Source: Struthio camelus
Lineage: Eukaryota; Chordata; Aves; Struthioniformes; Struthionidae
Direction of reading: 5' to 3'
Assembly (NCBI RefSeq): GCF_040807025.1
Contig: NC_090954.1
Span: 22,559,535 to 22,623,534, forward strand
Length of the DNA: 64,000 bases
Shown one piece after another: positions 285 through 63,250 of this stretch. Below the pieces are notes generated by a model. It did not search any database and was not told the origin of the DNA. It worked only from the letters and a program-made list of their open reading frames with translations. Each line of letters opens with the position of its first letter. The stretch's first letter is position 1. The position numbers were made by a program, and so were the translations under genes.

Positions 285-2744
285 CGTGTCCAGGAGGGCG
301 GGCGGATCCGGCGGCGTCTCCTTCGGCGCGGGGCCGGCGGGCGGCGGCAAGTTGGGGCTGAAAACCATGAGGTCGCTCTTGCCCGCGCCGTCCGCCACGC
401 ACAGGCTCCGGCTCTGGCGCTGCGAGTACGACCAGCTGCCCACTTCGCTGGCGCACACCAGCGTCGCCGGCCCGGGCCCCGACAGCACGGCCGCCCGCGG
501 CGCCCACCGCGACGCCCCGTACAGCACCACCGCCAGCAGGAACAGGCTCGACACCGCGCAGATGGCCACCACCAGCCACACGTTCGTCGTCGCCGCCACC
601 GCCACCGCCGCTTCCGCGCCGCCCTCGCCGCCCGCCGCCCGCCGCGGCCCCGGCACCGACGAGCCCGCGCCCACCGCCCCCGCCCCCGCCCCTGCCGCAC
701 CCTCGCCCAGCGACACGCTCAGCGTGGCCGTGGTCGAGCGCGCCGGCTCGCCGTGGTCGCGCACCACGATGACCAGCGTCTGCCGCGCGCCGTCCGCCTC
801 CTCCAGCGCCCGCGCCGTGCTCACCTCGCCGCTGTACAGCCCCACGCGGAACGGGCCCTTGCCCCGCGGCTCGCGCAGCTCGTAGCGCAGCCACGCGTTG
901 TAGCCCGAGTCCGCGTCCACCGCACGGATCTTCGCCACCACCTGCCCCGCCGGCGCCCCCCACGCCGCCCACGCCCACAGCGACGCCGGCGACGCCGGCC
1001 CCGGCCGCGACCCCGCCGCGCCGCCAGCCCACGGCCCCGCGCCGCCGCCCGCAGGCGGCAGCAGCGCCGGCGCGTTGTCGTTCTCGTCCACCACGAAGAG
1101 CTGCACCGTGGCGTTGCCGCACAGCGCCGGCTCCCCCGCGTCCACCGCCCGCACCTCGAACTGCAGCACCTGCACCTCCTCGTAGTCGAAGGGCTGCAGC
1201 GCCCACAGCCGCCCGCTCTCCGCCTCCACCGACACGTACCGCGACGCCGAGCGCCACGACGCGCCCCCCGCGCCCTCCGCCACCGAGTACCTCACGCGCC
1301 CGTTGCCCGCCTCGTCCGGGTCCCGCGCCCACAGCCGCGCCAGCTCCGCGCCCGCCGCGTTGTTCTCCCGCGCCAGCACCGTGTACACGGCCTGCGCGAA
1401 CGCCGGCGCGTTGTCGTTCACGTCCGACACCGGCACCCGCAGCCCGCGGCTGCCGCGCAGCGCCGGCGCCCCGCCGTCCTCCGCCCGCACCTCCACCTCG
1501 TACTCCGCCACCCGCTCCCGGTCCAGCGCCTCCCGCAGCACCAGCGAGTACGAGCCCTCGAACGTCGCCACCAGCCCGAACGGCGCCGCCGGCCACACCG
1601 CGCACCGCACCCGCCCGTTCGCCCCCGAGTCCCGGTCCGACACGCTCAGCAGCGCCACCACCGTCCCCACCGCCGCGTCCTCCGGCACCGGCACCGACAG
1701 CGACGTCACCCACACCTCCGGCGCGTTGTCGTTCACGTCCACCACCTCCAACAACACGCTGCAGTGCCCCGATAACGGAGGCGTACCCCTGTCTTTCGCT
1801 TCGATCTCCAGGTCATACGAGTCAACGTCCTCAAAGTCTACCTTCCCTACGGTAGTCAGTTCCCCTGATTTCGCGTCTATCCGAAACAAATCCTTCACTT
1901 TGGCAGAAGTGGTGTCGCTAAAGGCGTAAGATATTTCCTGATTAGTTCCTTCGTCCTTGTCTGTCGCCGTTAGCTGCAGAATCACCGTTGCCGGGGGCGA
2001 ATTCTCGGGCAACTGCACTTTATACACCGACTGGTTGAACTCGGGCGCGTTGTCGTTCACATCCAGCACCGAGATCACCAGCTCCATCGTCCCCGACAGC
2101 GACGGTCTGCCCCCGTCACTCGCCGTCACCAGCAAGCGGTGCACAGCCATCGACTCCCGGTCCAGCGCTTTCTTTAAAACGAGCGCTACGGATGTTTTCT
2201 TTTCGTCTTTGGATTTCACTTCTAAAGTGAAATGCTCGCTGGGGCTGAGGGTGTAGGAGAGCTGCGCGTTGGCGCCGACATCGGCATCCGACGCGCCCTC
2301 CAGCGGAAAGCGGGACCCGAGAGGGGAACTCTCCCATATGCTGAGGTTTTTGCGGGCGGCGGGGAAGAGCGGGGCGTTGTCGTTGATGTCGGTGACCTCC
2401 AGCTCCACGTGAAAGACGCGCAGCGGCCGCTCCACCAGCACCTCCAGGCGCAGGGCGCACGGCGCGCTCTTCCCGCACAGCTCCTCCCGGTCCAGCCGCG
2501 AGCTCACCACCAGCGCCCCGCTCGCCCCGCTCACCTCCACGCTCGCCCGCCGGCCCTTCGCCACCAGCCGCAGCCGGCGCGCCTCCAGCTCGCCCGCCTC
2601 CAGGCCCAGGTCCTGCGCCAGCCGACCCACCACCGTGCCGCCCTTCGCCTCCTCCGGCACCGAGTAGCGCACCGGACCGCCGCCCAGCGCCCAGGCCGCC
2701 TGCAGCACCAGCAGCCGCAGCACCGCCCGCACCCACACGCCCAT
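285..2744 (-). CDS. PCDHA: Protocadherin alpha variable exon, copy 1
   Basis: Encodes 820 residues from the ATG at 2744, which lies in a strong context (G at -3, G at +4). Upstream in-frame GTG codons were not used as starts. Signal peptide about residues 1-22. Six cadherin repeats follow, with DxNDNAP calcium motifs ending EC1 to EC5 at 119, 228, 336, 441 and 553. EC1 holds the family C-x5-C pair (C90, C96). Membrane span about 721-743, then the alpha-type cytoplasmic motifs [10 protein letters not shown] and [12 protein letters not shown]. The coding part ends at a GTCAGT donor (284-279, minus strand), phase 0 by this reading. Sequons lie at N133, N237 and N544. Role from family knowledge: calcium-dependent homophilic neuronal adhesion and self-recognition, completed by splicing to constant exons outside the window. 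EC2 carries AARKNLSIWESSPLGS. EC3 is of the type shared with copies 4 and 5. Past the donor the frame stays open to the window edge. Confidence 0.93.
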
Positions 2745-3515: not shown

Positions 3516-3798
3516 CTCCTCCTCTCTTCCCTTCCCTTCCCTTCTCTTCCCTTCTCTTCTCTTCTCTTCCCTTCTCTTCTCTTCTCTTCTCTTCTCTTCT
3601 CTTCTCTTCTCTTCTCTTCGCTTCGCTTCGCTTCGCTTCGCTTCGCTTCGCTTCCCGTCGCTTCCCGTCGCTTCCCGTCGCTTCCCGTCGCTTCCCGTCG
3701 CTTCCCGTCGCTTCGCTTCGCTTCGCTTCTTTTCCCTCCTCTTCCCTCCCCTTTCCTCCCCTCCCCTCCCCTTCTCTATTCCCCTCTCCTCTCCCCCC
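3516..3798. repeat. Upstream polypyrimidine tract, unit 1
   Basis: CTCTT repeats, then CGCTT repeats, then five to six CCGTCGCTT nonamers (3653-3713), then CCCCT-rich DNA. Purine strand is the coding strand; about 770 bases upstream of the ATG. Confidence 0.9.
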
Positions 3799-5675: not shown

Positions 5676-7947
5676 ACGTCCACAACTAAGGGAAGGCAAG
5701 AACACCCAACACCCTAATGGCACCCGCCTCCCCATGCCTTCCTGGAAATCATACCTGATGAGGAGAAAGGCACCAAGACCACCAAAGGCAGCTCAAGCTG
5801 AAACAAAGCTCCCCGCACCACAAAAGGCAAGAAGAGTTGATAGGCTACCTCCCACAACACCGCACTCCCGAGTACGGCCCCTACTCGGCCGCAACAGCAG
5901 AACGTTCCACCCTTTCCAGTACAAGGCCAGCCTGAGACACGGCCAGTGTGCTCAGCCTCCAAAGAGACCTAACAACGCCAGACACTCCTCACTTCAGGAA
6001 GGCAGCATGGACCTAGCTCCTCCTCATCTTTCCCGCCAGGCATGCGCTCACAGAACAACACAGCCACCACTTCGCTACCCGCCGGATTTACTCCCCACAC
6101 ACTGCCTCACGCTCATCAACATCATCCACCTGTCACAAGAACAAACAGAAGCCATGAAGGTGGCCCGACCGCGTTTTCACTGAGGACATCCCCAATCACT
6201 CCCAACACAGCCACAGAGGCAAACACAGGAGAGACCTTCCCACACTCACACACACGTGCTTGCTCTCACGCTGTGCCAGGAAGCAACGTGCAAAGCCAGC
6301 GAGCGATCCCTCGGAAGTCCTGCCGCCTGGGCCAAGCCTGCACGCAACGTTAGATCCACCCAAATTACTGTCTCGTGACTACACGGCAACACAGAGACAT
6401 CTGCCTGTCACACGCACCCTCTTCTGGTGGAGTCTGAGGCACCGGGAAGTTCGGCCAGTGGCTGCTTCTGCAGAAAAACAATGTAGATCGTTCCTTCTAG
6501 AAGGGCCTCCAAGGGAAGTCGCCAGTGAGCAACGCGAAGGATTCCCATGGAAGAGGGGTTTGAAACAGCTACGCAAGCCTTGTCAGACCTCTGAAATCGC
6601 TCCATTCCTGACAGTGCTCCTACAGGCGCTGCTGTGAAACGGGAAGCAGAAGGGCAAGCTGAAAGCTGATGACATTCTCCCAACGTCCAATGCCCCTCAG
6701 CACAGCAGGAAACAACTGCCCACACTCATGGCAAGCGGCCCCAGCTCGGGAAACCTCTCACACAGCAAACTCCACCTTGCCCTCGATTCCTGACGTGTCT
6801 CCTGAGTCAGGCTGGCGACAGGGAGACAGGCTGCTGTTGCTGGTGGCGCAGAATGGTGCCCCGGCTCGTACCCACATGCTCACCATCACGCCCCACGACA
6901 TTACCACAACACGTTTATCCACACTCGCAGAAAACAAGCAAGGCCTACCACCGCGGGACACGTGCAAGGGGCACAGTCAGGAACCGTGAGTGACGAGCTT
7001 CCACCACCGTTCCCGGGGCCTGAGTGCACCTCCTCCACCAGCACACCCTGGCTAAGGCAGCGACATGCTTCCCCGTGTCTTACAGCGACCGCGCGATTTC
7101 CTCTTCTGCCTGTGCCCTTTAAGCTGCTGAGAATGCTAACAACGTACGTGGATCGAGGCTTTCCTCACGACAAGCTTCACCTCCCAAGACGCAGGTCACG
7201 CTCTCGCTCCTTCCGTAGGCCCAGGAGTGGCTTCTCGCGCCCGCACAGTCGAAGTAAGGCAGCATGTAGCAGCACGAAACTGCTTTTTCTCTGCCTTGTG
7301 CCCAGACAGAGGCATTCGAAAACAGCACACGCCGACACACTGTGCAAGCCTCCTGCAACACTGAACCACAGCTGAATACGACCGCCACCTCCAGGAGACC
7401 TACACTTCCGAACGCAGCTCAGCACCAGTATTGTTACACAGCAACACGGAACCGCCGAGGGCGAAACGGACACTTGTTTTGTGCAGTCGCACAAACGGCG
7501 CGCAGGGAAACGCACGCAAGGACTCAGATCTTCCGGAGAGCAACCAAGGATGCAGAGTGAACGGCAACGATGTCTGGTGGACAAAGAGACTACGCAGGCA
7601 ACGACGGAGCTCCTCTCCGCTTCTCGCGGGCGCGGACGAGGAAGTGAGGAACACAAATGCAGAAGCAATAGCGAGCAAAGGCAAAGAGGAAAGCAAACCC
7701 GGGCGAGAGCAGTCGCCCGCCTCCTTCCCTCTGCCGGGAACTCTCGGATCGGCCGCTGCGACCATCAAAGGCGGAGCCATCAGCGCTAATGACAGGGCAC
7801 CCGCTCCCTGCCATTGTCCATTCACACCTCATGAAGGGTAAGCTCCTTAGGCACTAACTGCATTCAGCGTATAGAGGTGATGTCGGTTAATGAGGGCAAT
7901 TTCTTTCTTTTCTTTTCCACCGTGCCTTGCCTTGCCTTGCTTTGCGT

Positions 7948-8195
7948 TCCCTCCCCTCCCCTCCCCTCCCCTCCCCTCCCCTCCCCTTCCCTTCCCTTCC
8001 CTTCCCTTCCCTTCCCTTCCCTTCCCTTCCCTTCCCTTCCCTTCCCTTCCCTTCCCTTCCCTTCCCTTCCCTTCCCTTCCCTTCCCTTCCCTTCCCTTCC
8101 CTTCCCTTCCCTTCCCTTCCCTTCCCTTCCCTTCCCTTCCCTTCCCTTCCCTTCCCTTCCCTTCCCTTCCCTTCCCTTCCCTTCCCTTCCCTTCC
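7948..8195. repeat. Distal CCCTT tract, unit 1
   Basis: Five CCCCT repeats followed by more than 40 CCCTT repeats, the longest pure run of this type in the window. Confidence 0.92.
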
Positions 8196-9348: not shown

Positions 9349-11808
9349 CGTGTCCAGGAGGGCGGGCGGATCCGGCGGCGTCTCCTTCGGCGCGGGGCCG
9401 GCGGGCGGCGGCAAGTTGGGGCTGAAAACCATGAGGTCGCTCTTGCCCGCGCCGTCCGCCACGCACAGGCTCCGGCTCTGGCGCTGCGAGTACGACCAGC
9501 TGCCCACTTCGCTGGCGCACACCAGCGTCGCCGGCCCGGGCCCCGACAGCACGGCCGCCCGCGGCGCCCACCGCGACGCCCCGTACAGCACCACCGCCAG
9601 CAGGAACAGGCTCGACACCGCGCAGATGGCCACCACCAGCCACACGTTCGTCGTCGCCGCCACCGCCACCGCCGCTTCCGCGCCGCCCTCGCCGCCCGCC
9701 GCCCGCCGCGGCCCCGGCACCGACGAGCCCGCGCCCACCGCCCCCGCCCCCGCCCCCGCCGCGCCCTCGCCCAGCGACACGCTCAGCGTGGCCGTGGTCG
9801 AGCGCGCCGGCTCGCCGTGGTCGCGCACCACGATGACCAGCGTCTGCCGCGCGCCGTCCGCCTCCTCCAGCGCCCGCGCCGTGCTCACCTCGCCGCTGTA
9901 CAGACCCACGCGGAACGGGCCCTTGCCCCGCGGCTCGCGCAGCTCGTAGCGCAGCCACGCGTTGTAGCCCGAGTCCGCGTCCACCGCACGGATCTTCGCC
10001 ACCACCTGCCCCGCCGGCGCCCCCCACGCCGCCCACGCCCACAGCGACGCCGGCGACGCCGGCCCCGGCCGCGACCCCGCCGCGCCGCCAGCCCACGGCC
10101 CCGCGCCGCCGCCCGCAGGCGGCAGCAGCGCCGGCGCGTTGTCGTTCTCGTCCACCACGAAGAGCTGCACCGTGGCGTTGCCGCACAGCGCCGGCTCCCC
10201 CGCGTCCACCGCCCGCACCTCGAACTGCAGCACCTGCACCTCCTCGTAGTCGAAGGGCTGCAGCGCCCACAGCCGCCCGCTCTCCGCCTCCACCGACACG
10301 TACCGCGACGCCGAGCGCCACGACGCGCCCCCCGCGCCCTCCGCCACCGAGTACCTCACGCGCCCGTTGCCCGCCTCGTCCGGGTCCCGCGCCCACAGCC
10401 GCGCCAGCTCCGCGCCCGCCGCGTTGTTCTCCCGCGCCAGCACCGTGTACACGGCCTGCGCGAACGCCGGCGCGTTGTCGTTCACGTCCGACACCGGCAC
10501 CCGCAGCCCGCGGCTGCCGCGCAGCGCCGGCGCCCCGCCGTCCTCCGCCCGCACCTCCACCTCGTACTCCGCCACCCGCTCCCGGTCCAGCGCCTCCCGC
10601 AGCACCAGCGAGTACGAGCCCTCGAACGTCGCCACCAGCCCGAACGGCGCCGCCGGCCACACCGCGCACCGCACCCGCCCGTTCGCCCCCGAGTCCCGGT
10701 CCGACACGCTCAGCAGCGCCACCACCGTCCCCACCGCCGCGTCCTCCGGCACCGGCACCGACAGCGACGTCACCCACACCTCCGGCGCGTTGTCGTTCAC
10801 GTCCACCACCTCCAACAACACGCTGCAGTGCCCCGATAACGGAGGCGTACCCCTGTCTTTCGCCTCAATGCGAAAGTCAAATGCGCTGACTTCTTCAAAG
10901 TCCAGGGGGGCTGTTAGCCTGATCTCCCCCGTGCTCGGATTCACGCTTATCAGGTCTTTTCCGAGGAGTGGAAGGAAGTGCGTGGCTGTGTACACCACTT
11001 CCCCGTTAATTCCCTCGTCCCGATCCGTGGCGCTCACGCGCACCACCAGCGTCCCCTCTGCAGCGCTCTCCGACAGCTGCACTTTATACACCGACTGGTT
11101 GAACTCGGGCGCGTTGTCGTTCGCATCCAGCACCGAGATCACCAGCTCCATCGTCCCCGACAGCGACGGTCTGCCCCCGTCACTCGCCGTCACCAGCAAG
11201 CGGTGCACAGCCATCGACTCCCGGTCCAGCGCTTTCGTCAACACGAGTTCCGGTAACGTATTCTGGTCATTCACTTTTTGTAAATCCAACCTGAAATGCT
11301 CGCTGGGGCTGAGGGTGTAGGAGAGCTGCGCGTTGGCGCCGACATCGGCATCCGACGCGCCCTCCAGCGGAAAGCGGGAGCCCGGCAGCGCTGATTCCGC
11401 GACGCTGAGGTTTTTGCGGTCGGCGGGGAAGAGCGGGGCGTTGTCGTTGATGTCGGTGACCTCCAGCTCCACGTGAAAGACGCGCAGCGGCCGCTCCACC
11501 AGCACCTCCAGGCGCAGGGCGCACGGCGCGCTCTTCCCGCACAGCTCCTCCCGGTCCAGCCGCGAGCTCACCACCAGCGCCCCGCTCGCCCCGCTCACCT
11601 CCACGCTCGCCCGCCGGCCCTTCGCCACCAGCCGCAGCCGGCGCGCCTCCAGCTCGCCCGCCTCCAGGCCCAGGTCCTGCGCCAGCCGACCCACCACCGT
11701 GCCGCCCTTCGCCTCCTCCGGCACCGAGTAGCGCACCGGACCGCCGCCCAGCGCCCAGGCCGCCTGCAGCACCAGCAGCCGCAGCACCGCCCGCACCCAC
11801 ACGCCCAT
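9349..11808 (-). CDS. PCDHA: Protocadherin alpha variable exon, copy 2
   Basis: An intact 820-codon exon with the same domain order as copy 1 and donor GTCAGT at 9348-9343. EC1, EC4-EC6, membrane span and tail are practically the same as in the other copies. Its identity lies in EC2 and EC3. EC2 reads [16 protein letters not shown] and then RLDLQKVNDQNTLPELVLTK, unlike any other copy. EC3 begins [20 protein letters not shown], then GINGEVVYTATHFLPLLGKD, then NPSTGEIRLTAPLDFEE. The first and last EC3 blocks are shared with copy 3 while the middle is private, so this exon looks mosaic. If the donor were not used, the frame would stop at 9172, giving a short intron-encoded tail; whether such an isoform exists is unknown. 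Confidence 0.93.
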
Positions 11809-12579: not shown

Positions 12580-12848
12580 CTCCTCCTCTCTTCCCTTCCC
12601 TTCCCTTCTCTTCCCTTCTCTTCTCTTCTCTTCCCTTCTCTTCTCTTCTCTTCTCTTCTCTTCTCTTCTCTTCTCTTCTCTTCTCTTCTCTTCGCTTCGC
12701 TTCGCTTCGCTTCGCTTCGCTTCGCTTCGCTTCCCGTCGCTTCCCGTCGCTTCCCGTCGCTTCGCTTCGCTTCGCTTCTTTTCCCTCCTCTTCCCTCCCC
12801 TTTCCTCCCCTCCCCTCCCCTTCTCTATTCCCCTCTCCTCTCCCCCCA
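12580..12848. repeat. Upstream polypyrimidine tract, unit 2
   Basis: As in unit 1 but with more CTCTT and CGCTT and only three CCGTCGCTT nonamers. Confidence 0.9.
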
Positions 12849-17011: not shown

Positions 17012-17140
17012 TTCCCTCCCCTCCCCTCCCCTCCCTTCCCCTCCCCTTCCCTTCCCTTCCCTTCCCTTCCCTTCCCTTCCCTTCCCTTCCCTTCCCTTCC
17101 CTTCCCTTCCCTTCCCTTCCCTTCCCTTCCCTTCCCTTCC
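17012..17140. repeat. Distal CCCTT tract, unit 2
   Basis: Same position and type, 129 bases. Confidence 0.92.
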
Positions 17141-18300: not shown

Positions 18301-20760
18301 CGTGTCCAGGAGGGCGGGCGGATCCGGCGGCGTCTCCTTCGGCGCGGGGCCGGCGGGCGGCGGCAAGTTGGGGCTGAAAACCATGAGGTCGCTCTTGCCC
18401 GCGCCGTCCGCCACGCACAGGCTCCGGCTCTGGCGCTGCGAGTACGACCAGCTGCCCACTTCGCTGGCGCACACCAGCGTCGCCGGCCCGGGCCCCGACA
18501 GCACGGCCGCCCGCGGCGCCCACCGCGACGCCCCGTACAGCACCACCGCCAGCAGGAACAGGCTCGACACCGCGCAGATGGCCACCACCAGCCACACGTT
18601 CGTCGTCGCCGCCACCGCCACCGCCGCTTCCGCGCCGCCCTCGCCGCCCGCCGCCCGCCGCGGCCCCGGCACCGACGAGCCCGCGCCCACCGCCCCCGCC
18701 CCCGCCCCCGCCGCGCCCTCGCCCAGCGACACGCTCAGCGTGGCCGTGGTCGAGCGCGCCGGCTCGCCGTGGTCGCGCACCACGATGACCAGCGTCTGCC
18801 GCGCGCCGTCCGCCTCCTCCAGCGCCCGCGCCGTGCTCACCTCGCCGCTGTACAGCCCCACGCGGAACGGGCCCTTGCCCCGCGGCTCGCGCAGCTCGTA
18901 GCGCAGCCACGCGTTGTAGCCCGAGTCCGCGTCCACCGCACGGATCTTCGCCACCACCTGCCCCGCCGGCGCCCCCCACGCCGCCCACGCCCACAGCGAC
19001 GCCGGCGACGCCGGCCCCGGCCGCGACCCCGCCGCGCCGCCAGCCCACGGCCCCGCGCCGCCGCCCGCAGGCGGCAGCAGCGCCGGCGCGTTGTCGTTCT
19101 CGTCCACCACGAAGAGCTGCACCGTGGCGTTGCCGCACAGCGCCGGCTCCCCCGCGTCCACCGCCCGCACCTCGAACTGCAGCACCTGCACCTCCTCGTA
19201 GTCGAAGGGCTGCAGCGCCCACAGCCGCCCGCTCTCCGCCTCCACCGACACGTACCGCGACGCCGAGCGCCACGACGCGCCCCCCGCGCCCTCCGCCACC
19301 GAGTACCTCACGCGCCCGTTGCCCGCCTCGTCCGGGTCCCGCGCCCACAGCCGCGCCAGCTCCGCGCCCGCCGCGTTGTTCTCCCGCGCCAGCACCGTGT
19401 ACACGGCCTGCGCGAACGCCGGCGCGTTGTCGTTCACGTCCGACACCGGCACCCGCAGCCCGCGGCTGCCGCGCAGCGCCGGCGCCCCGCCGTCCTCCGC
19501 CCGCACCTCCACCTCGTACTCCGCCACCCGCTCCCGGTCCAGCGCCTCCCGCAGCACCAGCGAGTACGAGCCCTCGAACGTCGCCACCAGCCCGAACGGC
19601 GCCGCCGGCCACACCGCGCACCGCACCCGCCCGTTCGCCCCCGAGTCCCGGTCCGACACGCTCAGCAGCGCCACCACCGTCCCCACCGCCGCGTCCTCCG
19701 GCACCGGCACCGACAGCGACGTCACCCACACCTCCGGCGCGTTGTCGTTCACGTCCACCACCTCCAACAACACGCTGCAATGCCCCGATAACGGAGGTGT
19801 ACCCCTGTCTTTCGCTTCCACTTGTATCTCGTATAGGCGAACGTCTTCATAGTCCAGGGGGGCTGTTAGCCTGATCTCCCCCGTGCTCGGATTCACGGTA
19901 AATACGTCTTTGACAGTAGAAGGAACCAAACTGACGATGTCGTAGCAAACCTCCTCATTGGGTCCCTCGTCCCGATCCGTGGCGCTCACGCGCACCACCA
20001 GCGTCCCCTCTGCAGCGCTCTCCGACAGCTGCACTTTATACACCGACTGGTTGAACTCGGGCGCGTTGTCGTTCGCATCCAGCACCGAGATCACCAGCTC
20101 CATCGTCCCCGACAGCGACGGTCTGCCCCCGTCTCTCGCCGTCACCAGCAAGCGGTGCACAGCCATCGACTCCCGGTCCAGCGCTTTCGACAGCACCAGG
20201 AATAACGACTTCCTGTTTTCATTCGCGGATTTAACGTCGAGAGCGAAATGCTCGCTGGGGCTGAGGGTGTAGGAGAGCTGCGCGTTGGCGCCAACATCGG
20301 CATCCGACGCGCCCTCCAGCGGAAAGCGGGAGCCCGGCAGCGCTGATTCCGCGACGCTGAGGTTTTTGCGGTCGGCGGGGAAGAGCGGGGCGTTGTCGTT
20401 GATGTCGGTGACCTCCAGCTCCACGTGAAAGACGCGCAGCGGCCGCTCCACCAGCACCTCCAGGCGCAGGGCGCACGGCGCGCTCTTCCCGCACAGCTCC
20501 TCCCGGTCCAGCCGCGAGCTCACCACCAGCGCCCCGCTCGCCCCGCTCACCTCCACGCTCGCCCGCCGGCCCTTCGCCACCAGCCGCAGCCGGCGCGCCT
20601 CCAGCTCGCCCGCCTCCAGGCCCAGGTCCTGCGCCAGCCGACCCACCACCGTGCCGCCCTTCGCCTCCTCCGGCACCGAGTAGCGCACCGGACCGCCGCC
20701 CAGCGCCCAGGCCGCCTGCAGCACCAGCAGCCGCAGCACCGCCCGCACCCACACGCCCAT
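18301..20760 (-). CDS. PCDHA: Protocadherin alpha variable exon, copy 3
   Basis: An intact 820-codon exon ending at a GTCAGT donor (18300-18295). The frame is also open for 85 codons upstream, but that stretch has no ATG, is alanine-rich because of GCC repeats, and lies in the 5' leader, so the start is placed at the ATG matching the other copies. EC2 private patch: [20 protein letters not shown], with TARD in place of TASD near residue 208. EC3 shares its first block and NPSTGEIRLTAPLD with copy 2 but has GPNEEVCYDIVSLVPSTVKD in the middle. It is the only copy with a different upstream region (20953-22002), so it may be regulated differently. The unspliced frame would end at 18034. Confidence 0.93.
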
Positions 20761-22002: not shown

Positions 22003-24088
22003 GCACTCCCGAGTACGGCCCCTACTCGGCCGCAACAGCAGAACGTTCCACCCTTTCCAGTACAAGGCCAGCCTGAGACACGGCCAGTGTGCTCAGCCTC
22101 CAAAGAGACCTAACAACGCCAGACACTCCTCACTTCAGGAAGGCAGCATGGACCTAGCTCCTCCTCATCTTTCCCGCCAGGCATGCGCTCACAGAACAAC
22201 ACAGCCACCACTTCGCTACCCGCCGGATTTACTCCCCACACACTGCCTCACGCTCATCAACATCATCCACCTGTCACAAGAACAAACAGAAGCCATGAAG
22301 GTGGCCCGACCGCGTTTTCACTGAGGACATCCCCAATCACTCCCAACACAGCCACAGAGGCAAACACAGGAGAGACCTTCCCACACTCACACACACGTGC
22401 TTGCTCTCACGCTGTGCCAGGAAGCAACGTGCAAAGCCAGCGAGCGATCCCTCGGAAGTCCTGCCGCCTGGGCCAAGCCTGCACGCAACGTTAGATCCAC
22501 CCAAATTACTGTCTCGTGACTACACGGCAACACAGAGACATCTGCCTGTCACACGCACCCTCTTCTGGTGGAGTCTGAGGCACCGGGAAGTTCGGCCAGT
22601 GGCTGCTTCTGCAGAAAAACAATGTAGATCGTTCCTTCTAGAAGGGCCTCCAAGGGAAGTCGCCAGTGAGCAACGCGAAGGATTCCCATGGAAGAGGGGT
22701 TTGAAACAGCTACGCAAGCCTTGGCAGACCTCTGAAATCGCTCCATTCCTGACAGTGCTCCTACAGGCGCTGCTGTGAAACGGGAAGCAGAAGGGCAAGC
22801 TGAAAGCTGATGACATTCTCCCAACGTCCAATGCCCCTCAGCACAGCAGGAAACAACTGCCCACACTCATGGCAAGCGGCCCCAGCTCGGGAAACCTCTC
22901 ACACAGCAAACTCCACCTTGCCCTCGATTCCTGACGTGTCTCCTGAGTCAGGCTGGCGACAGGGAGACAGGCTGCTGTTGCTGGTGGCGCAGAATGGTGC
23001 CCCGGCTCGCACCCACATGCTCACCATCACGCCCCACGACATTACCACAACACGTTTATCCGCACTCGCAGAAAACAAGCAAGGCCTACCACCGCGGGAC
23101 ACGTGCAAGGGGCACAGTCAGGAACCGTGAGTGACGAGCTTCCACCACCGTTCCCGGGGCCTGAGTGCACCTCCTCCACCAGCACACCCTGGCTAAGGCA
23201 GCGACATGCTTCCCCGTGTCTTACAGCGACCGCGCGATTTCCTCTTCTGCCTGTGCCCTTTAAGCTGCTGAGAATGCTAACAACGTACGTGGATCGAGGC
23301 TTTCCTCACGACAAGCTTCACCTCCCAAGACGCAGGTCACGCTCTCGCTCCTTCCGTAGGCCCAGGAGTGGCTTCTCGCGCCCGCACAGTCGAAGTAAGG
23401 CAGCATGTAGCAGCACGAAACTGCTTTTTCTCTGCCTTGTGCCCAGACAGAGGCATTCGAAAACAGCACACGCCGACACACTGTGCAAGCCTCCTGCAAC
23501 ACTGAACCACAGCTGAATACGACCGCCACCTCCAGGAGACCTACACTTCCGAACGCAGCTCAGCACCAGTATTGTTACACAGCAACACGGAACCGCCGAG
23601 GGCGAAACGGACACTTGTTTTGTGCAGTCGCACAAACGGCGCGCAGGGAAACGCACGCAAGGACTCAGATCTTCCGGAGAGCAACCAAGGATGCAGAGTG
23701 AACGGCAACGATGTCTGGTGGACAAAGAGACTACGCAGGCAACGACGGAGCTCCTCTCCGCTTCTCGCGGGCGCGGACGAGGAAGTGGGGAACACAAATG
23801 CAGAAGCAATAGCGAGCAAAGGCAAAGAGGAAAGCAAACCCGGGCGAGAGCAGTCGCCCGCCTCCTTCCCTCTGCCGGGAACTTTCGGATCGGCCGCTGC
23901 GACCATCAAAGGCGGAGCCATCAGCGCTAATGACAGGGCACCCGCTCCCTGCCATTGTCCATTCACACCTCATGAAGGGTAAGCTCCTTAGGCACTAACT
24001 GCATTCAGCGTATAGAGGTGATGTCGGTTAATGAGGGCAATTTCTTTCTTTTCTTTTCCACCGTGCCTTGCCTTGCCTTGCTTTGCGT

Positions 24089-24280
24089 TCCCTCCCCTCC
24101 CCTCCCCTCCCTCCCCTCCCCTCCCCTTCCCTTCCCTTCCCTTCCCTTCCTTTCCCTCCCCTCCCCTTCCCTTCGCTCCCCTCCCCTCCCCTTCCCTTCC
24201 CTTCCCTTCCCTTCCCTTCCCTTCCCTTCCCTTCCCTTCCCTTCCCTTCCCTTCCCTTCCCTTCCCTTCCCTTCCCTTCC
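24089..24280. repeat. Distal CCCTT tract, unit 3
   Basis: 192 bases with an interrupted first half (a TTCGCTCCCC interruption near 24173). Confidence 0.92.
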
Positions 24281-25429: not shown

Positions 25430-27892
25430 CGTGTCCAGGAGGGCGGGCGGATCCGGCGGCGTCTCCTTCGGCGCGGGGCCGGCGGGCGGCGGCAAGTTGG
25501 GGCTGAAAACCATGAGGTCGCTCTTGCCCGCGCCGTCCGCCACGCACAGGCTCCGGCTCTGGCGCTGCGAGTACGACCAGCTGCCCACTTCGCTGGCGCA
25601 CACCAGCGTCGCCGGCCCGGGCCCCGACAGCACGGCCGCCCGCGGCGCCCACCGCGACGCCCCGTACAGCACCACCGCCAGCAGGAACAGGCTCGACACC
25701 GCGCAGATGGCCACCACCAGCCACACGTTCGTCGTCGCCGCCACCGCCACCGCCGCTTCCGCGCCGCCCTCGCCGCCCGCCGCCCGCCGCGGCCCCGGCA
25801 CCGACGAGCCCGCGCCCACCGCCCCCGCCGCCGCCCCCGCCGCGCCCTCGCCCAGCGACACGCTCAGCGTGGCCGTGGTCGAGCGCGCCGGCTCGCCGTG
25901 GTCGCGCACCACGATGACCAGCGTCTGCCGCGCGCCGTCCGCCTCCTCCAGCGCCCGCGCCGTGCTCACCTCGCCGCTGTACAGCCCCACGCGGAACGGG
26001 CCCTTGCCCCGCGGCTCGCGCAGCTCGTAGCGCAGCCACGCGTTGTAGCCCGAGTCCGCGTCCACCGCACGGATCTTCGCCACCACCTGCCCCGCCGGCG
26101 CCCCCCACGCCGCCCACGCCCACAGCGACGCCGGCGACGCCGGCCCCGGCCGCGACCCCGCCGCGCCGCCAGCCCACGGCCCCGCGCCGCCGCCCGCAGG
26201 CGGCAGCAGCGCCGGCGCGTTGTCGTTCTCGTCCACCACGAAGAGCTGCACCGTGGCGTTGCCGCACAGCGCCGGCTCCCCCGCGTCCACCGCCCGCACC
26301 TCGAACTGCAGCACCTGCACCTCCTCGTAGTCGAAGGGCTGCAGCGCCCACAGCCGCCCGCTCTCCGCCTCCACCGACACGTACCGCGACGCCGAGCGCC
26401 ACGACGCGCCCCCCGCGCCCTCCGCCACCGAGTACCTCACGCGCCCGTTGCCCGCCTCGTCCGGGTCCCGCGCCCACAGCCGCGCCAGCTCCGCGCCCGC
26501 CGCGTTGTTCTCCCGCGCCAGCACCGTGTACACGGCCTGCGCGAACGCCGGCGCGTTGTCGTTCACGTCCGACACCGGCACCCGCAGCCCGCGGCTGCCG
26601 CGCAGCGCCGGCGCCCCGCCGTCCTCCGCCCGCACCTCCACCTCGTACTCCGCCACCCGCTCCCGGTCCAGCGCCTCCCGCAGCACCAGCGAGTACGAGC
26701 CCTCGAACGTCGCCACCAGCCCGAACGGCGCCGCCGGCCACACCGCGCACCGCACCCGCCCGTTCGCCCCCGAGTCCCGGTCCGACACGCTCAGCAGCGC
26801 CACCACCGTCCCCACCGCCGCGTCCTCCGGCACCGGCACCGACAGCGACGTCACCCACACCTCCGGCGCGTTGTCGTTCACGTCCACCACCTCCAACAAC
26901 ACGCTGCAGTGCCCCGATAACGGAGGCGTACCCCTGTCTTTCGCTTCGATCTCCAGGTCATACGAGTCAACGTCCTCAAAGTCTACCTTCCCTACGGTAG
27001 TCAGTTCCCCTGATTTCGCGTCTATCCGAAACAAATCCTTCACTTTGGCAGAAGTGGTGTCGCTAAAGGCGTAAGATATTTCCTGATTAGTTCCTTCGTC
27101 CTTGTCTGTCGCCGTTAGCTGCAGAATCACCGTTGCCGGGGGCGAATTCTCGGGCAACTGCACTTTATACACCGACTGGTTGAACTCGGGCGCGTTGTCG
27201 TTCACATCCAGCACCGAGATCACCAGCTCCATCGTCCCCGACAGCGACGGTCTGCCCCCGTCACTCGCCGTCACCAGCAAGCGGTGCACAGCCATCGACT
27301 CCCGGTCCAGCGCTTTCTTTAAAACGAGCGCTACGGATGTTTTCTTTTCGTCTTTGGATTTCACTTCTAAGGTGAAATGCTCGCTCGGGCTGAGGGTGTA
27401 GGAGAGCTGCGCGTTGGCGCCGACATCGGCATCCGACGCGCCCTCCAGCGGAAAGCGGGAGCCCGGCAGCGTTAAGGACTCCGCGACGCTGAGGTTTTTG
27501 CGGTCGGCGGGGAAGAGCGGGGCGTTGTCGTTGATGTCGGTGACCTCCAGCTCCACGTGAAAGACGCGCAGCGGCCGCTCCACCAGCACCTCCAGGCGCA
27601 GGGCGCACGGCGCGCTCTTCCCGCACAGCTCCTCCCGGTCCAGCCGCGAGCTCACCACCAGCGCCCCGCTCGCCCCGCTCACCTCCACGCTCGCCCGCCG
27701 GCCCTTCGCCACCAGCCGCAGCCGGCGCGCCTCCAGCTCGCCCGCCTCCAGGCCCAGGTCCTGCGCCAGCCGACCCACCACCGTGCCGCCCTTCGCCTCC
27801 TCCGGCACCGAGTAGCGCACCGGACCGCCGCCCAGCGCCCAGGCCGCCTGCAGCACCAGCAGCCGCAGCACCGCCCGCACCCACACGCCCAT
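25430..27892 (-). CDS. PCDHA: Protocadherin alpha variable exon, copy 4
   Basis: Encodes 821 residues, one more than copies 1, 2, 3 and 5, because the EC1-EC2 junction reads [10 protein letters not shown] (shared with copy 6). The rest of EC2 (TLEVKSKDEKKTSVALVLKK) and all of EC3 (PENSPPATVILQLTATDKDE through GKVDFEDVDSYDLEIEAKD) match copies 1 and 5, so its recognition surface should be nearly theirs. The region between EC6 and the membrane has one Gly-to-Ala change (GAAAGAV against GAGAGAV). Donor GTCAGT lies at 25429-25424. The unspliced frame runs on to a stop at 24950, a tail of about 160 codons. Confidence 0.93.
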
Positions 27893-28663: not shown

Positions 28664-28892
28664 CTCCTCCTCTCTTCCCTTCCCTTCCCTTCTCTTCCCT
28701 TCTCTTCTCTTCTCTTCTCTTCTCTTCTCTTCTCTTCGCTTCGCTTCGCTTCGCTTCGCTTCGCTTCGCTTCGCTTCCCGTCGCTTCCCGTCGCTTCCCG
28801 TCGCTTCGCTTCGCTTCGCTTCTTTTCCCTCCTCTTCCCTCCCCTTTCCTCCCCTCCCCTCCCCTTCTCTATTCCCCTCTCCTCTCCCCCCA
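28664..28892. repeat. Upstream polypyrimidine tract, unit 4
   Basis: A shorter tract: fewer CTCTT repeats, a CGCTT run and three CCGTCGCTT nonamers. Confidence 0.9.
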
Positions 28893-31213: not shown

Positions 31214-33486
31214 CACGTCCACAACTAAGGGAAGGCAAGAACACCCAACACCCTAATGGCACCCGCCTCCCCATGCCTTCCTGGAAATCATACCTGATGA
31301 GGAGAAAGGCACCAAGACCACCAAAGGCAGCTCAAGCTGAAACAAAGCTCCCCGCACCACAAAAGGCAAGAAGAGTTGATAGGCTACCTCCCACAACACC
31401 GCACTCCCGAGTACGGCTCCTACTCGGCCGCAACAGCAGAACGTTCCACCCTTTCCAGTACAAGGCCAGCCTGAGACACGGCCAGTGTGCTCAGCCTCCA
31501 AAGAGACCTAACAACGCCAGACACTCCTCACTTCAGGAAGGCAGCATGGACCTAGCTCCTCCTCATCTTTCCCGCCAGGCATGCGCTCACAGAACAACAC
31601 AGCCACCACTTCGCTACCCGCCGGATTTACTCCCCACACACTGCCTCACGCTCATCAACATCATCCACCTGTCACAAGAACAAACAGAAGCCATGAAGGT
31701 GGCCCGACCGCGTTTTCACTGAGGACATCCCCAATCACTCCCAACACAGCCACAGAGGCAAACACAGGAGAGACCTTCCCACACTCACACACACGTGCTT
31801 GCTCTCACGCTGTGCCAGGAAGCAACGTGCAAAGCCAGCGAGCGATCCCTCGGAAGTCCTGCCGCCTGGGCCAAGCCTGCACGCAACGTTAGATCCACCC
31901 AAATTACTGTCTCGTGACTACACGGCAACACAGAGACATCTGCCTGTCACACGCACCCTCTTCTGGTGGAGTCTGAGGCACCGGGAAGTTCGGCCAGTGG
32001 CTGCTTCTGCAGAAAAACAATGTAGATCGTTCCTTCTAGAAGGGCCTCCAAGGGAAGTCGCCAGTGAGCAACGCGAAGGATTCCCATGGAAGAGGGGTTT
32101 GAAACAGCTACGCAAGCCTTGTCAGACCTCTGAAATCGCTCCATTCCTGACAGTGCTCCTACAGGCGCTGCTGTGAAACGGGAAGCAGAAGGGCAAGCTG
32201 AAAGCTGATGACATTCTCCCAACGTCCAATGCCCCTCAGCACAGCAGGAAACAACTGCCCACACTCATGGCAAGCGGCCCCAGCTCGGGAAACCTCTCAC
32301 ACAGCAAACTCCACCTTGCCCTCGATTCCTGACGTGTCTCCTGAGTCAGGCTGGCGACAGGGAGACAGGCTGCTGTTGCTGGTGGCGCAGAATGGTGCCC
32401 CGGCTCGTACCCACATGCTCACCATCACGCCCCACGACATTACCACAACACGTTTATCCGCACTCGCAGAAAACAAGCAAGGCCTACCACCGCGGGACAC
32501 GTGCAAGGGGCACAGTCAGGAACCGTGAGTGACGAGCTTCCACCACCGTTCCCGGGGCCTGAGTGCACCTCCTCCACCAGCACACCCTGGCTAAGGCAGC
32601 GACATGCTTCCCCGTGTCTTACAGCGACCGCGCGATTTCCTCTTCTGCCTGTGCCCTTTAAGCTGCTGAGAATGCTAACAACGTACGTGGATCGAGGCTT
32701 TCCTCACGACAAGCTTCACCTCCCAAGACGCAGGTCACGCTCTCGCTCCTTCCGTAGGCCCAGGAGTGGCTTCTCGCGCCCGCACAGTCGAAGTAAGGCA
32801 GCATGTAGCAGCACGAAACTGCTTTTTCTCTGCCTTGTGCCCAGACAGAGGCATTCGAAAACAGCACACGCCGACACACTGTGCAAGCCTCCTGCAACAC
32901 TGAACCACAGCTGAATACGACCGCCACCTCCAGGAGACCTACACTTCCGAACGCAGCTCAGCACCAGTATTGTTACACAGCAACACGGAACCGCCGAGGG
33001 CGAAACGGACACTTGTTTTGTGCAGTCGCACAAACGGCGCGCAGGGAAACGCACGCAAGGACTCAGATCTTCCGGAGAGCAACCAAGGATGCAGAGTGAA
33101 CGGCAACGATGTCTGGTGGACAAAGAGACTACGCAGGCAACGACGGAGCTCCTCTCCGCTTCTCGCGGGCGCGGACGAGGAAGTGGGGAACACAAATGCA
33201 GAAGCAATAGCGAGCAAAGGCAAAGAGGAAAGCAAACCCGGGCGAGAGCAGTCGCCCGCCTCCTTCCCTCTGCCGGGAACTTTCGGATCGGCCGCTGCGA
33301 CCATCAAAGGCGGAGCCATCAGCGCTAATGACAGGGCACCCGCTCCCTGCCATTGTCCATTCACACCTCATGAAGGGTAAGCTCCTTAGGCACTAACTGC
33401 ATTCAGCGTATAGAGGTGATGTCGGTTAATGAGGGCAATTTCTTTCTTTTCTTTTCCACCGTGCCTTGCCTTGCCTTGCTTTGCGT

Positions 33487-33698
33487 TCCCTCCCCTCCCC
33501 TCCCCTCCCTCCCCTCCCCTCCCCTTCCCTTCCCTTCCCTTCCCTTCCTTTCCCTCCCCTCCCCTTCCCTTCGCTCCCCTCCCCTCCCCTTCCCTTCCCT
33601 TCCCTTCCCTTCCCTTCCCTTCCCTTCCCTTCCCTTCCCTTCCCTTCCCTTCCCTTCCCTTCCCTTCCCTTCCCTTCCCTTCCCTTCCCTTCCCTTCC
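33487..33698. repeat. Distal CCCTT tract, unit 4
   Basis: 212 bases with the same interruption pattern as unit 3 and a longer pure run after it. Confidence 0.92.
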
Positions 33699-34861: not shown

Positions 34862-37321
34862 CGTGTCCAGGAGGGCGGGCGGATCCGGCGGCGTCTCCTT
34901 CGGCGCGGGGCCGGCGGGCGGCGGCAAGTTGGGGCTGAAAACCATGAGGTCGCTCTTGCCCGCGCCGTCCGCCACGCACAGGCTCCGGCTCTGGCGCTGC
35001 GAGTACGACCAGCTGCCCACTTCGCTGGCGCACACCAGCGTCGCCGGCCCGGGCCCCGACAGCACGGCCGCCCGCGGCGCCCACCGCGACGCCCCGTACA
35101 GCACCACCGCCAGCAGGAACAGGCTCGACACCGCGCAGATGGCCACCACCAGCCACACGTTCGTCGTCGCCGCCACCGCCACCGCCGCTTCCGCGCCGCC
35201 CTCGCCGCCCGCCGCCCGCCGCGGCCCCGGCACCGACGAGCCCGCGCCCACCGCCCCCGCCCCCGCCCCCGCCGCGCCCTCGCCCAGCGACACGCTCAGC
35301 GTGGCCGTGGTCGAGCGCGCCGGCTCGCCGTGGTCGCGCACCACGATGACCAGCGTCTGCCGCGCGCCGTCCGCCTCCTCCAGCGCCCGCGCCGTGCTCA
35401 CCTCGCCGCTGTACAGCCCCACGCGGAACGGGCCCTTGCCCCGCGGCTCGCGCAGCTCGTAGCGCAGCCACGCGTTGTAGCCCGAGTCCGCGTCCACCGC
35501 ACGGATCTTCGCCACCACCTGCCCCGCCGGCGCCCCCCACGCCGCCCACGCCCACAGCGACGCCGGCGACGCCGGCCCCGGCCGCGACCCCGCCGCGCCG
35601 CCAGCCCACGGCCCCGCGCCGCCGCCCGCAGGCGGCAGCAGCGCCGGCGCGTTGTCGTTCTCGTCCACCACGAAGAGCTGCACCGTGGCGTTGCCGCACA
35701 GCGCCGGCTCCCCCGCGTCCACCGCCCGCACCTCGAACTGCAGCACCTGCACCTCCTCGTAGTCGAAGGGCTGCAGCGCCCACAGCCGCCCGCTCTCCGC
35801 CTCCACCGACACGTACCGCGACGCCGAGCGCCACGACGCGCCCCCCGCGCCCTCCGCCACCGAGTACCTCACGCGCCCGTTGCCCGCCTCGTCCGGGTCC
35901 CGCGCCCACAGCCGCGCCAGCTCCGCGCCCGCCGCGTTGTTCTCCCGCGCCAGCACCGTGTACACGGCCTGCGCGAACGCCGGCGCGTTGTCGTTCACGT
36001 CCGACACCGGCACCCGCAGCCCGCGGCTGCCGCGCAGCGCCGGCGCCCCGCCGTCCTCCGCCCGCACCTCCACCTCGTACTCCGCCACCCGCTCCCGGTC
36101 CAGCGCCTCCCGCAGCACCAGCGAGTACGAGCCCTCGAACGTCGCCACCAGCCCGAACGGCGCCGCCGGCCACACCGCGCACCGCACCCGCCCGTTCGCC
36201 CCCGAGTCCCGGTCCGACACGCTCAGCAGCGCCACCACCGTCCCCACCGCCGCGTCCTCCGGCACCGGCACCGACAGCGACGTCACCCACACCTCCGGCG
36301 CGTTGTCGTTCACGTCCACCACCTCCAACAACACGCTGCAGTGCCCCGATAACGGAGGCGTACCCCTGTCTTTCGCTTCGATCTCCAGGTCATACGAGTC
36401 AACGTCCTCAAAGTCTACCTTCCCTACGGTAGTCAGTTCCCCTGATTTCGCGTCTATCCGAAACAAATCCTTCACTTTGGCAGAAGTGGTGTCGCTAAAG
36501 GCGTAAGATATTTCCTGATTAGTTCCTTCGTCCTTGTCTGTCGCCGTTAGCTGCAGAATCACCGTTGCCGGGGGCGAATTCTCGGGCAACTGCACTTTAT
36601 ACACCGACTGGTTGAACTCGGGCGCGTTGTCGTTCACATCCAGCACCGAGATCACCAGCTCCATCGTCCCCGACAGCGACGGTCTGCCCCCGTCACTCGC
36701 CGTCACCAGCAAGCGGTGCACAGCCATCGACTCCCGGTCCAGCGCTTTCTTTAAAACGAGCGCTACGGATGTTTTCTTTTCGTCTTTGGATTTCACTTCT
36801 AAGGTGAAATGCTCGCTCGGGCTGAGGGTGTAGGAGAGCTGCGCGTTGGCGCCGACATCGGCATCCGACGCGCCCTCCAGCGGAAAGCGGGACCCGAGAG
36901 GGGAACTCTCCCATATGCTGAGGTTTTTGCGGTCGGCGGGGAAGAGCGGGGCGTTGTCGTTGATGTCGGTGACCTCCAGCTCCACGTGAAAGACGCGCAG
37001 CGGCCGCTCCACCAGCACCTCCAGGCGCAGGGCGCACGGCGCGCTCTTCCCGCACAGCTCCTCCCGGTCCAGCCGCGAGCTCACCACCAGCGCCCCGCTC
37101 GCCCCGCTCACCTCCACGCTCGCCCGCCGGCCCTTCGCCACCAGCCGCAGCCGGCGCGCCTCCAGCTCGCCCGCCTCCAGGCCCAGGTCCTGCGCCAGCC
37201 GACCCACCACCGTGCCGCCCTTCGCCTCCTCCGGCACCGAGTAGCGCACCGGACCGCCGCCCAGCGCCCAGGCCGCCTGCAGCACCAGCAGCCGCAGCAC
37301 CGCCCGCACCCACACGCCCAT
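34862..37321 (-). CDS. PCDHA: Protocadherin alpha variable exon, copy 5
   Basis: An intact 820-codon exon with donor GTCAGT at 34861-34856. It aligns with copy 1 at a constant offset of 34577 bases across the exon, with no insertions or deletions. The only amino-acid difference I found in the ectodomain is Asp instead of Ala at residue 130 (ADRKNLS against AARKNLS). EC2 junction IWESSPLGS and EC3 type are those of copy 1; EC3 is also that of copy 4. By known protocadherin rules such near-identical ectodomains would be expected to bind each other as the same isoform. The unspliced frame ends at 34595. Confidence 0.93.
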
Positions 37322-43563: not shown

Positions 43564-43732
43564 TTCCCTCCCCTCCCCTCCCCTCCCCTCCCCTCCCCTC
43601 CCCTCCCCTCCCCTCCCCTTCCCTTCCCTTCCCTTCCCTTCCCTTCCCTTCCCTTCCCTTCCCTTCCCTTCCCTTCCCTTCCCTTCCCTTCCCTTCCCTT
43701 CCCTTCCCTTCCCTTCCCTTCCCTTCCCTTCC
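43564..43732. repeat. Distal CCCTT tract, unit 5
   Basis: 169 bases: about ten CCCCT repeats, then pure CCCTT. Confidence 0.92.
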
Positions 43733-44881: not shown

Positions 44882-47344
44882 CGTGTCCAGGAGGGCGGGC
44901 GGATCCGGCGGCGTCTCCTTCGGCGCGGGGCCGGCGGGCGGCGGCAAGTTGGGGCTGAAAACCATGAGGTCGCTCTTGCCCGCGCCGTCCGCCACGCACA
45001 GGCTCCGGCTCTGGCGCTGCGAGTACGACCAGCTGCCCACTTCGCTGGCGCACACCAGCGTCGCCGGCCCGGGCCCCGACAGCACGGCCGCCCGCGGCGC
45101 CCACCGCGACGCCCCGTACAGCACCACCGCCAGCAGGAACAGGCTCGACACCGCGCAGATGGCCACCACCAGCCACACGTTCGTCGTCGCCGCCACCGCC
45201 ACCGCCGCTTCCGCGCCGCCCTCGCCGCCCGCCGCCCGCCGCGGCCCCGGCACCGACGAGCCCGCGCCCACCGCCCCCGCCCCCGCCCCTGCCGCACCCT
45301 CGCCCAGCGACACGCTCAGCGTGGCCGTGGTCGAGCGCGCCGGCTCGCCGTGGTCGCGCACCACGATGACCAGCGTCTGCCGCGCGCCGTCCGCCTCCTC
45401 CAGCGCCCGCGCCGTGCTCACCTCGCCGCTGTACAGCCCCACGCGGAACGGGCCCTTGCCCCGCGGCTCGCGCAGCTCGTAGCGCAGCCACGCGTTGTAG
45501 CCCGAGTCCGCGTCCACCGCACGGATCTTCGCCACCACCTGCCCCGCCGGCGCCCCCCACGCCGCCCACGCCCACAGCGACGCCGGCGACGCCGGCCCCG
45601 GCCGCGACCCCGCCGCGCCGCCAGCCCACGGCCCCGCGCCGCCGCCCGCAGGCGGCAGCAGCGCCGGCGCGTTGTCGTTCTCGTCCACCACGAAGAGCTG
45701 CACCGTGGCGTTGCCGCACAGCGCCGGCTCCCCCGCGTCCACCGCCCGCACCTCGAACTGCAGCACCTGCACCTCCTCGTAGTCGAAGGGCTGCAGCGCC
45801 CACAGCCGCCCGCTCTCCGCCTCCACCGACACGTACCGCGACGCCGAGCGCCACGACGCGCCCCCCGCGCCCTCCGCCACCGAGTACCTCACGCGCCCGT
45901 TGCCCGCCTCGTCCGGGTCCCGCGCCCACAGCCGCGCCAGCTCCGCGCCCGCCGCGTTGTTCTCCCGCGCCAGCACCGTGTACACGGCCTGCGCGAACGC
46001 CGGCGCGTTGTCGTTCACGTCCGACACCGGCACCCGCAGCCCGCGGCTGCCGCGCAGCGCCGGCGCCCCGCCGTCCTCCGCCCGCACCTCCACCTCGTAC
46101 TCCGCCACCCGCTCCCGGTCCAGCGCCTCCCGCAGCACCAGCGAGTACGAGCCCTCGAACGTCGCCACCAGCCCGAACGGCGCCGCCGGCCACACCGCGC
46201 ACCGCACCCGCCCGTTCGCCCCCGAGTCCCGGTCCGACACGCTCAGCAGCGCCACCACCGTCCCCACCGCCGCGTCCTCCGGCACCGGCACCGACAGCGA
46301 CGTCACCCACACCTCCGGCGCGTTGTCGTTCACGTCCACCACCTCCAACAACACGCTGCAGTGCCCGCTCAGCGGGGGGTTGCCCTTGTCCTCCGCATCC
46401 ACTTGCAAACGATACAGGCGAACGCCCTCAAAGTCCAGCTGACCTCGCAAAATGATCTCCCCACTGTTCCTCTCGATTCTGAATACGTCTCTTCCATCCG
46501 CAGGATGAATAGTTCCGAGGACATACGAAATGTCCCTGTTCGTTCCCTCGTCCCGATCCGTGGCGCTCACCCTCATCACTAAAGCTCCCCTTTCCGTATC
46601 TTCCGACAGCTGCACTTTATACATCGACTGGTTGAACTCGGGCGCGTTGTCGTTCACATCCAGCACCGAGATCACCAGCTCCATCGTCCCCGACAGCGAC
46701 GGTCTGCCCCCGTCACTCGCCGTCACCAGCAAGCGGTGCACAGCCATCGACTCCCGGTCCAGCGCTTTCGACAGCACCAGGAATAACGATTCCCCGTCCC
46801 CTTCGGTTTTCTGCGACTCCAGAGAGAAATGCTCGCTCGGGCTGAGGGTGTAGGAGAGCTGCGCGTTGGCGCCGACATCGGCATCCGACGCGCCCTCCAG
46901 CGGAAAGCGGGAGCCCGGCAGCGTTAAGGACTCCGCGACGCTGAGGTTTTTGCGGGCGGCGGGGAAGAGCGGGGCGTTGTCGTTGATGTCGGTGACCTCC
47001 AGCTCCACGTGAAAGACGCGCAGCGGCCGCTCCACCAGCACCTCCAGGCGCAGGGCGCACGGCGCGCTCTTCCCGCACAGCTCCTCCCGGTCCAGCCGCG
47101 AGCTCACCACCAGCGCCCCGCTCGCCCCGCTCACCTCCACGCTCGCCCGCCGGCCCTTCGCCACCAGCCGCAGCCGGCGCGCCTCCAGCTCGCCCGCCTC
47201 CAGGCCCAGGTCCTGCGCCAGCCGACCCACCACCGTGCCGCCCTTCGCCTCCTCCGGCACCGAGTAGCGCACCGGACCGCCGCCCAGCGCCCAGGCCGCC
47301 TGCAGCACCAGCAGCCGCAGCACCGCCCGCACCCACACGCCCAT
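44882..47344 (-). CDS. PCDHA: Protocadherin alpha variable exon, copy 6
   Basis: Encodes 821 residues, ends at a GTCAGT donor (44881-44876) and carries the [10 protein letters not shown] junction of copy 4 together with the AARKNLS of copy 1. It is the most distinct in EC2-EC3: [20 protein letters not shown] in EC2; [40 protein letters not shown] and [20 protein letters not shown] in EC3. It also departs from the common sequence at the end of EC3 ([12 protein letters not shown] against EAKDRGTPPLSG) and has NQSMYK instead of NQSVYK. This is the last exon before a 16-kb exon-less stretch at higher coordinates. The unspliced frame ends at 44402. Confidence 0.93.
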
Positions 47345-63136: not shown

Positions 63137-63250
63137 TTCCCTCCCCTCCCCTCCCCTCCCCTTCCTTTCCCTCCCCTCCCCTCCCCTCCCCTCCCCTCCC
63201 CTCCCCTCCCCTTCCCTTCCCTTCCCTTCCCTTCCCTTCCCTTCCCTTCC
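63137..63250. repeat. Distal CCCTT tract before the next exon flank
   Basis: 114 bases, mostly CCCCT, the shortest of its type, followed by the ordinary CTCGCTTTAGACAAAAC flank. Confidence 0.92.

Follow-up and report, generated by a model that had tools for sequence, protein, structure and literature searches.

Isoform-specific homophilic binding and the stochastic choice of exons per neuron are known for the protocadherin (Pcdh) family. Regional homogenisation that leaves the N-terminal repeats divergent has been described in fugu, where a contrast in G+C content at third codon positions (GC3) was taken as a sign of repeated conversion (PMC1852091), and the second and third extracellular cadherin repeats (EC2 and EC3) have been reported as the least converted ones in zebrafish, mammals, and Xenopus (PMC4978886; also cited in PMC1852091), with positive selection on EC2-EC3 in mammals (cited by PMC1852091). 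Among alpha isoforms, EC2-EC3 is the specificity region, the EC2 beta4-beta5 loop and the EC3 Phe-X10-Phe loop are named specificity elements, and EC1/EC4 have low isoform-specific conservation (PMC5001838), and gamma specificity is distributed over EC1-EC4 (PMC5106212); the zebrafish facts come via PMC1852091 and PMC2764143 as citing papers. Here, we describe a 64-kb window of the Struthio camelus genome (the whole stretch of DNA analysed, C13:22559535-22623534) that carries six Pcdh-alpha variable exons. Their few variable patches consist of old sequence which conversion has not overwritten, whereas the array as a whole is recent or was homogenised recently. We propose that the locus is probably a conversion-homogenised alpha array with old EC2-EC3 recognition blocks retained by selection.

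The six exons all lie on the minus strand, have 820-821 codons each, and are closed by an identical donor, GACACG/GTCAGT:

285..2744, minus strand: Pcdh-alpha variable exon copy 1 (a7), patch type Y, with an open 820-codon frame, donor GTCAGT, Pfam domains, and a PDB match
9349..11808, minus strand: Pcdh-alpha variable exon copy 2 (a6), patch type W
18301..20760, minus strand: Pcdh-alpha variable exon copy 3 (a5), patch type X
25430..27892, minus strand: Pcdh-alpha variable exon copy 4 (a4), patch type Y
34862..37321, minus strand: Pcdh-alpha variable exon copy 5 (a3), patch type Y
44882..47344, minus strand: Pcdh-alpha variable exon copy 6 (a2), patch type Z, also scanned against Pfam

When the neighbourhood around the window was read too, nine near-identical alpha exons (a1-a9) were found in the assembled array, window copies 1 to 6 being array copies a7 to a2 in descending order, and all nine retain open reading frames of 820-826 codons. 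Divergent exons flank the nine copies, one upstream and two downstream, and gamma-like arrays follow ~140-370 kb downstream of the alpha array. The way in which the Pcdh cluster is linked to single Pcdh-like genes appears to resemble that in chicken. Each variable exon is one large unit that encodes six cadherin repeats, a membrane span (a hydrophobic stretch identified by eye), and a short cytoplasmic part ending at the splice donor, the GTCAGT form of which was shown for the six window copies. A Pfam scan of copies 1 and 6 found cadherin domains, in copy 1 Cadherin (five stretches) and Cadherin_2 above cut-off and Cadherin_C_2 under its cut-off. Among PDB sequences only, the best match of the whole copy 1 product is mouse Pcdh alpha-7 (E 8.5e-189), and EC1-EC4 of the array product ranks alpha-7 first and alpha-4 second. 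Judged from its sequence, the array is recognisable as the clustered protocadherin-alpha variable exons, upstream of C-type exons and near the gamma array, with the C-type and gamma names assigned from position and divergence alone.

The initial annotation, made from the sequence of the window, held that almost all amino-acid change is confined to three patches, and the alignment bears this out. Variation in the six window copies affects 84 amino-acid columns (gap columns being assigned to the preceding residue), and 80 of them fall within residues 129-146, 172-192, and 246-325, inside the interval 1770-2360, which corresponds to codons 129-325 of the first exon (285-2744, minus strand); the other four are residues 209, 229, 240, and 687 in copy-1 numbering. 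Chance clustering of the variable columns is ruled out (hypergeometric P ~2e-75), a value that says only that the placement is non-random. In copy 1, the patches and the blocks within them are as follows:

2319..2357, minus strand: patch 1, codons 130-142, at the EC2 start and shuffled among copies
2172..2228, minus strand: patch 2, codons 173-191, putatively on the EC2 beta4-beta5 loop (placement inferred from sequence)
1956..2009, minus strand: patch 3a, codons 246-263, the first EC3 strands, with three types in nine copies, not in step with patch 2
1782..1946, minus strand: patch 3b, codons 267-321, the remaining EC3 variation
1896..1934, minus strand: block 271-283, putatively in the EC3 Phe-X10-Phe loop region as placed from sequence, with the same copy partition as patch 2
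1800..1829, minus strand: block 306-315 of EC3, with the same copy partition as patch 2

Outside this island the copies are almost uniform, as the initial annotation had also stated for EC1, EC4-EC6, and the tail. Across the nine copies no amino-acid column varies in EC1, EC4, or EC5, one varies in the EC6 region, and none does in the cytoplasmic end; the signal-peptide start of a1, which lies outside the window, is the only further difference beyond the island. Silent sites are equally flat, since four-fold degenerate pair-sites differ at 0 of 3,196 in codons 3-128 and at 36 of 12,556 in codons 328-820. Therefore, the uniformity reflects homogenisation or very recent duplication and not protein constraint, and the strong homogenisation of a protocadherin alpha array claimed at the outset stands.

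Within the patches, by comparison, the sequence is old. For patches 2 and 3 together, the six pairs of the four types (X, Y, Z, and W) gave 1.29 synonymous substitutions per synonymous site (dS) and 0.45 nonsynonymous substitutions per nonsynonymous site (dN), a ratio of 0.35 that is rough because several type pairs are saturated in dS; the codon bootstrap ranged over 0.22-0.50, with 0 of 2000 draws above 1 when draws with saturated dS were entered as 0. The least saturated pair, X-W, has a dS of 0.48 and a dN/dS of 0.63. Taken across all 36 pairs, dS amounts to 0.002-0.003 outside the island, with values of 0.039 and 0.011 for its two internal spacers, and the pooled dN/dS is 0.46 in patch 1, 0.24 in patch 2, 0.30 in patch 3a, and 0.44 in patch 3b; a ratio close to 1 (1.11) was seen only in the spacer that separates patch 2 from patch 3, which has very few changes. 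GC3 is 0.974-0.984 outside the island and 0.55-0.80 across the patches, the values for patches 2 and 3b being 0.549 and 0.579, respectively. Thus dS is near zero outside the island and near-saturated in patches 2 and 3, where GC3 is low, and the two signs of regional gene conversion are both seen, dS collapsed in one region and high in the other, and GC3 raised in the converted part.

Recent mutation under selection after duplication is excluded, because dS in the patches exceeds the value outside the island by a factor of hundreds. The initial annotation had anticipated a dN/dS above 1 in the patches, which is contradicted by the pooled ratio, and its idea of selection keeping the patches different survives in one form only: selection is plausible as acting on which conversions survive, whereas there is no evidence of recent diversifying selection on new mutations. 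These same values would also suit a neutral relic, in which the patches diverged long ago and their mismatch now blocks conversion with no present selection. Neither a high patch dS nor a dN/dS of 0.35 requires positive selection, the low GC3 fits long exclusion from conversion, and most of the observed shuffling touches homogenised spacer on at least one side. However, we regard such a relic as rather unlikely, as conversion edges lie within the island and, in alpha as well as two gamma groups, the islands extend over the trans-binding repeats, although their widths differ.

The edges are visible in the mosaic of blocks carried by the copies. Patch 1 and residue 130 are shuffled between copies, and one patch 1 type occurs with three different cores. 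Copies a1 and a2 are identical in 3a, yet differ at 21 nucleotides in patch 2 and at 72 in 3b. Likewise, X (a5) and W (a6) show no differences in codons 210-266 and 289-303 but diverge in 173-191, 267-288, and 304-315, so that 45 identical bases are sandwiched by differing blocks. On the other hand, patch 2 (175-187), 271-283, and 306-315 all divide the nine copies in the same way once alleles no more than 2 nucleotides apart are treated as one. Window copies 1, 4, and 5 have the same patch 2 and patch 3 protein sequence, which leaves four patch 2/3 types in six copies, and the nine copies include four of type Y and three of type X. We read this as conversion that enters and leaves the island while mutually fitting blocks travel together.

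Patch 2 and block 271-283 also appear, from their placement in the sequence, to coincide with the named alpha specificity elements. The diversity is kept in EC2-EC3, the published alpha specificity region (PMC5001838), in agreement with the initial annotation, which had also linked an unselected origin to high synonymous divergence in the patches combined with no interface bias; the former was found (dS 1.29), and some interface bias may exist. EC1 and EC4, which make up half of the trans interface, show no change among copies, but patch 3 spans most of EC3, its core as well. Mouse alpha-4 and alpha-7 differ at 3 of 96 positions in EC1, 26 of 108 in EC2, 30 of 108 in EC3, and 23 of 94 in EC4, and these differences were used as a proxy for the interface.

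In the gamma region of the same genome, 22 exons were identified within C13:22.17-22.30 Mb, and 18 of these, in groups of nine, seven, and two, were examined for comparable islands; the four other exons were excluded as too divergent, and ~100 kb of the gamma array (C13:22.30-22.40 Mb) is outside the comparison. In the nine gamma-A-like and seven gamma-B-like exons the island is wider, as the variable positions begin near codon 20 of the mature protein and continue to codons 380-400, covering EC1-EC4 (in the gamma-B-like group the linker motif missed two linkers, so that EC3 and EC4 are not separated), and from EC5 onward dS is 0.000-0.008 with a few variable columns. The two-exon group differs too little to be informative. 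The island limits in alpha and gamma are suggestive of a fit to the published alpha and gamma specificity maps, a match based on three exon groups only. As a separate observation, in C13:22205941-22299768 six of the nine gamma-A-like exons are ~99% identical across the 700 codons compared, and therefore the distinct gamma specificities may be well fewer than the exons.

Based on these findings, we prefer selection over a pure mismatch barrier as the account of patch survival, because such a barrier is not expected to leave conversion edges within the island, and because the island limits seen in alpha are not those of the other exon groups in the genome. Gene conversion and unequal crossing-over would hold whole repeat units near-identical while short EC2/EC3 recognition blocks stay distinct, and the blocks would survive through selection against conversions that make two isoforms alike in trans binding; EC1/EC4, which in alpha isoforms contribute to affinity more than to specificity, would be free to homogenise. 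Conversion as the process and selection as the cause are what we infer from the pattern, and by analogy with the family the array copies would bind homophilically in an isoform-specific manner, with one or a few exons stochastically chosen per neuron.

Several points weigh against this proposal. The pooled dN/dS is below 1 in every patch (0.24-0.46), and the array-variable EC2-EC3 positions are weakly enriched at the mouse alpha-4/alpha-7 differences (odds ratio 1.9, P=0.025; taken separately, P=0.047 for EC2 and a non-significant P=0.21 for EC3). The islands have been homogenised too, with Y in four and X in three of the nine copies and a3 and a7 one residue apart across EC1-EC4, and therefore recognition diversity is not strictly guarded; similarly, ~97-100% identity over the entire length is shared by six of the nine gamma-A-like exons and by five of the seven gamma-B-like ones. 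Moreover, a generalised four-gamete test detected no conflict of 3a with patch 2 or the EC3 blocks, the conflicts that it did show involve single sites (residues 130, 209, and 229), each of which may have mutated twice, and the common partition of the three blocks may come from shared descent of whole units.

Homogenisation extends beyond the exons, in repeat units of ~7-10 kb (by exon spacing) with a mutual identity of ~95-99% over stretches of more than 2 kb, non-coding DNA included. Downstream of the exon, 8 of 11 windows differ by 0.07-0.91%. Since whole units, including their non-coding parts, are recent or recently homogenised, the old patches were either retained or imported, and import would mean that recent identical units received EC2-EC3 blocks by conversion from divergent donors, as in templated diversification. 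We consider such import improbable, as the 180 bases of W-type EC3 DNA have eight matches in the assembly, all within the array, and, of the listed matches to the Y-type protein (150 of 593 candidates scored), none from outside the array exceeds 48% identity; these donor searches covered W-type DNA and Y-type protein in an assembly whose array is gapped.

The gap, a run of 200 N at C13:22623535-22623734 just past window position 64000 and within the array, together with a unit identity of 98-99% over kilobases that is hard to assemble, raises the question of whether the assembler multiplied or merged copies. An artefact of this kind is very improbable, given nine open frames, nine EC1-EC4 proteins that are all different, and 1.5 kb of downstream sequence that differs by 0.6-2.0% in all 36 copy pairs. 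The left side of the gap stops ~0.4 kb from where, by its position in other units, the 3′ end of the next exon would be, and the right side starts at a unit position ~1.3 kb upstream of an exon's start codon; because these edges match unit positions on either side of an exon, a tenth alpha exon is probably hidden in the gap.

Upstream, ~0.2 kb is common to eight copies (all but a1), and past this point an alignment of all nine is meaningless, the sequences there being unrelated. In the nearest kilobase further upstream, a2, a3, a4, a6, a7, and a8 have one sequence and a5 and a9 a second, and the upstream DNA of a1 is a third sequence that reaches its start. The X-type copies a1, a5, and a9 (a5 being window 18301-20760) thus have upstream DNA unlike that of the other six, and their promoters may therefore differ from the others. 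Window 49160-61707 holds no variable exon and repeats itself at a spacing of ~5.05 kb with 99.5% identity, and thus the array amplifies non-coding pieces too. Long pyrimidine tracts, mostly of CCTTC/CTTCC units, occur at 13 places in the window (score at least 150) and might favour unequal exchange:

3526-3774, 7925-8195, 12583-12793, 17012-17140, 24066-24280, 28674-28867, 33464-33698: pyrimidine tracts, first seven
38109-38691, 43542-43732, 48119-48401, 53227-53519, 58279-58566, 63137-63247: pyrimidine tracts, other six

The alpha and gamma islands taken together allow a further and tentative suggestion, which we hold to be somewhat doubtful, namely that each Pcdh subfamily is homogenised only as far as its own recognition code allows, which would leave a few co-inherited EC2-EC3 blocks that touch across the dimer in alpha and all of EC1-EC4 in gamma. 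If this were true, the map of escaped conversion would read out the specificity residues directly at block resolution, and should the alpha/gamma contrast hold in more species, conversion maps could predict recognition residues. The near-identical copies that differ in a few blocks constitute a natural set of swap mutants, in which any differences in homophilic binding must stem from those blocks. In mouse, beta-6 and beta-8 have 92% identity and differ at five interface residues, yet fail to bind one another (PMC8901172).

In the open-licence literature, neither a paper devoted to a bird Pcdh cluster nor an account of islands fitted to subfamily specificity was found. The chicken CNR/Pcdh-alpha cluster, probably the same locus in a related species, was reportedly treated in Sugino 2004, which may already describe the island pattern. 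In mouse Pcdh alpha (alpha-4 and alpha-7; PDB 5dzw and 5dzv), as in the array, EC1 is near-identical and differences occur in EC2 and EC3, but the mouse EC4 differs at the 23 of 94 positions given above while that of the array is invariant. The fugu and zebrafish groups resemble the array in that paralogues are more than 99% identical in part of the variable exon and divergent elsewhere, with GC3 raised where converted (PMC1852091), and the ratio of high to low dS between ectodomains, 79.5-1280 in zebrafish and 38.4 to more than 94.6 in fugu, is comparable with the array (PMC2764143). However, the boundary in fugu lies in EC4 or EC5 and the part preceding it is divergent (PMC1852091), whereas EC1 of the array is homogenised and only EC2-EC3 blocks are left. 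The alpha groups of Xenopus tropicalis and the green anole also have dS peaks in EC2 or EC3 (PMC4978886, PMC2764143), although their high/low dS ratios of 2.47 in Xenopus (PMC4978886) and 3.40 in the anole (PMC2764143) indicate low conversion, unlike the array with its zero values in EC1, EC4, and EC5. For other vertebrates, regional conversion that spares EC2-EC3 has already been published, and the pattern of this array is real, strong, and of a known type.
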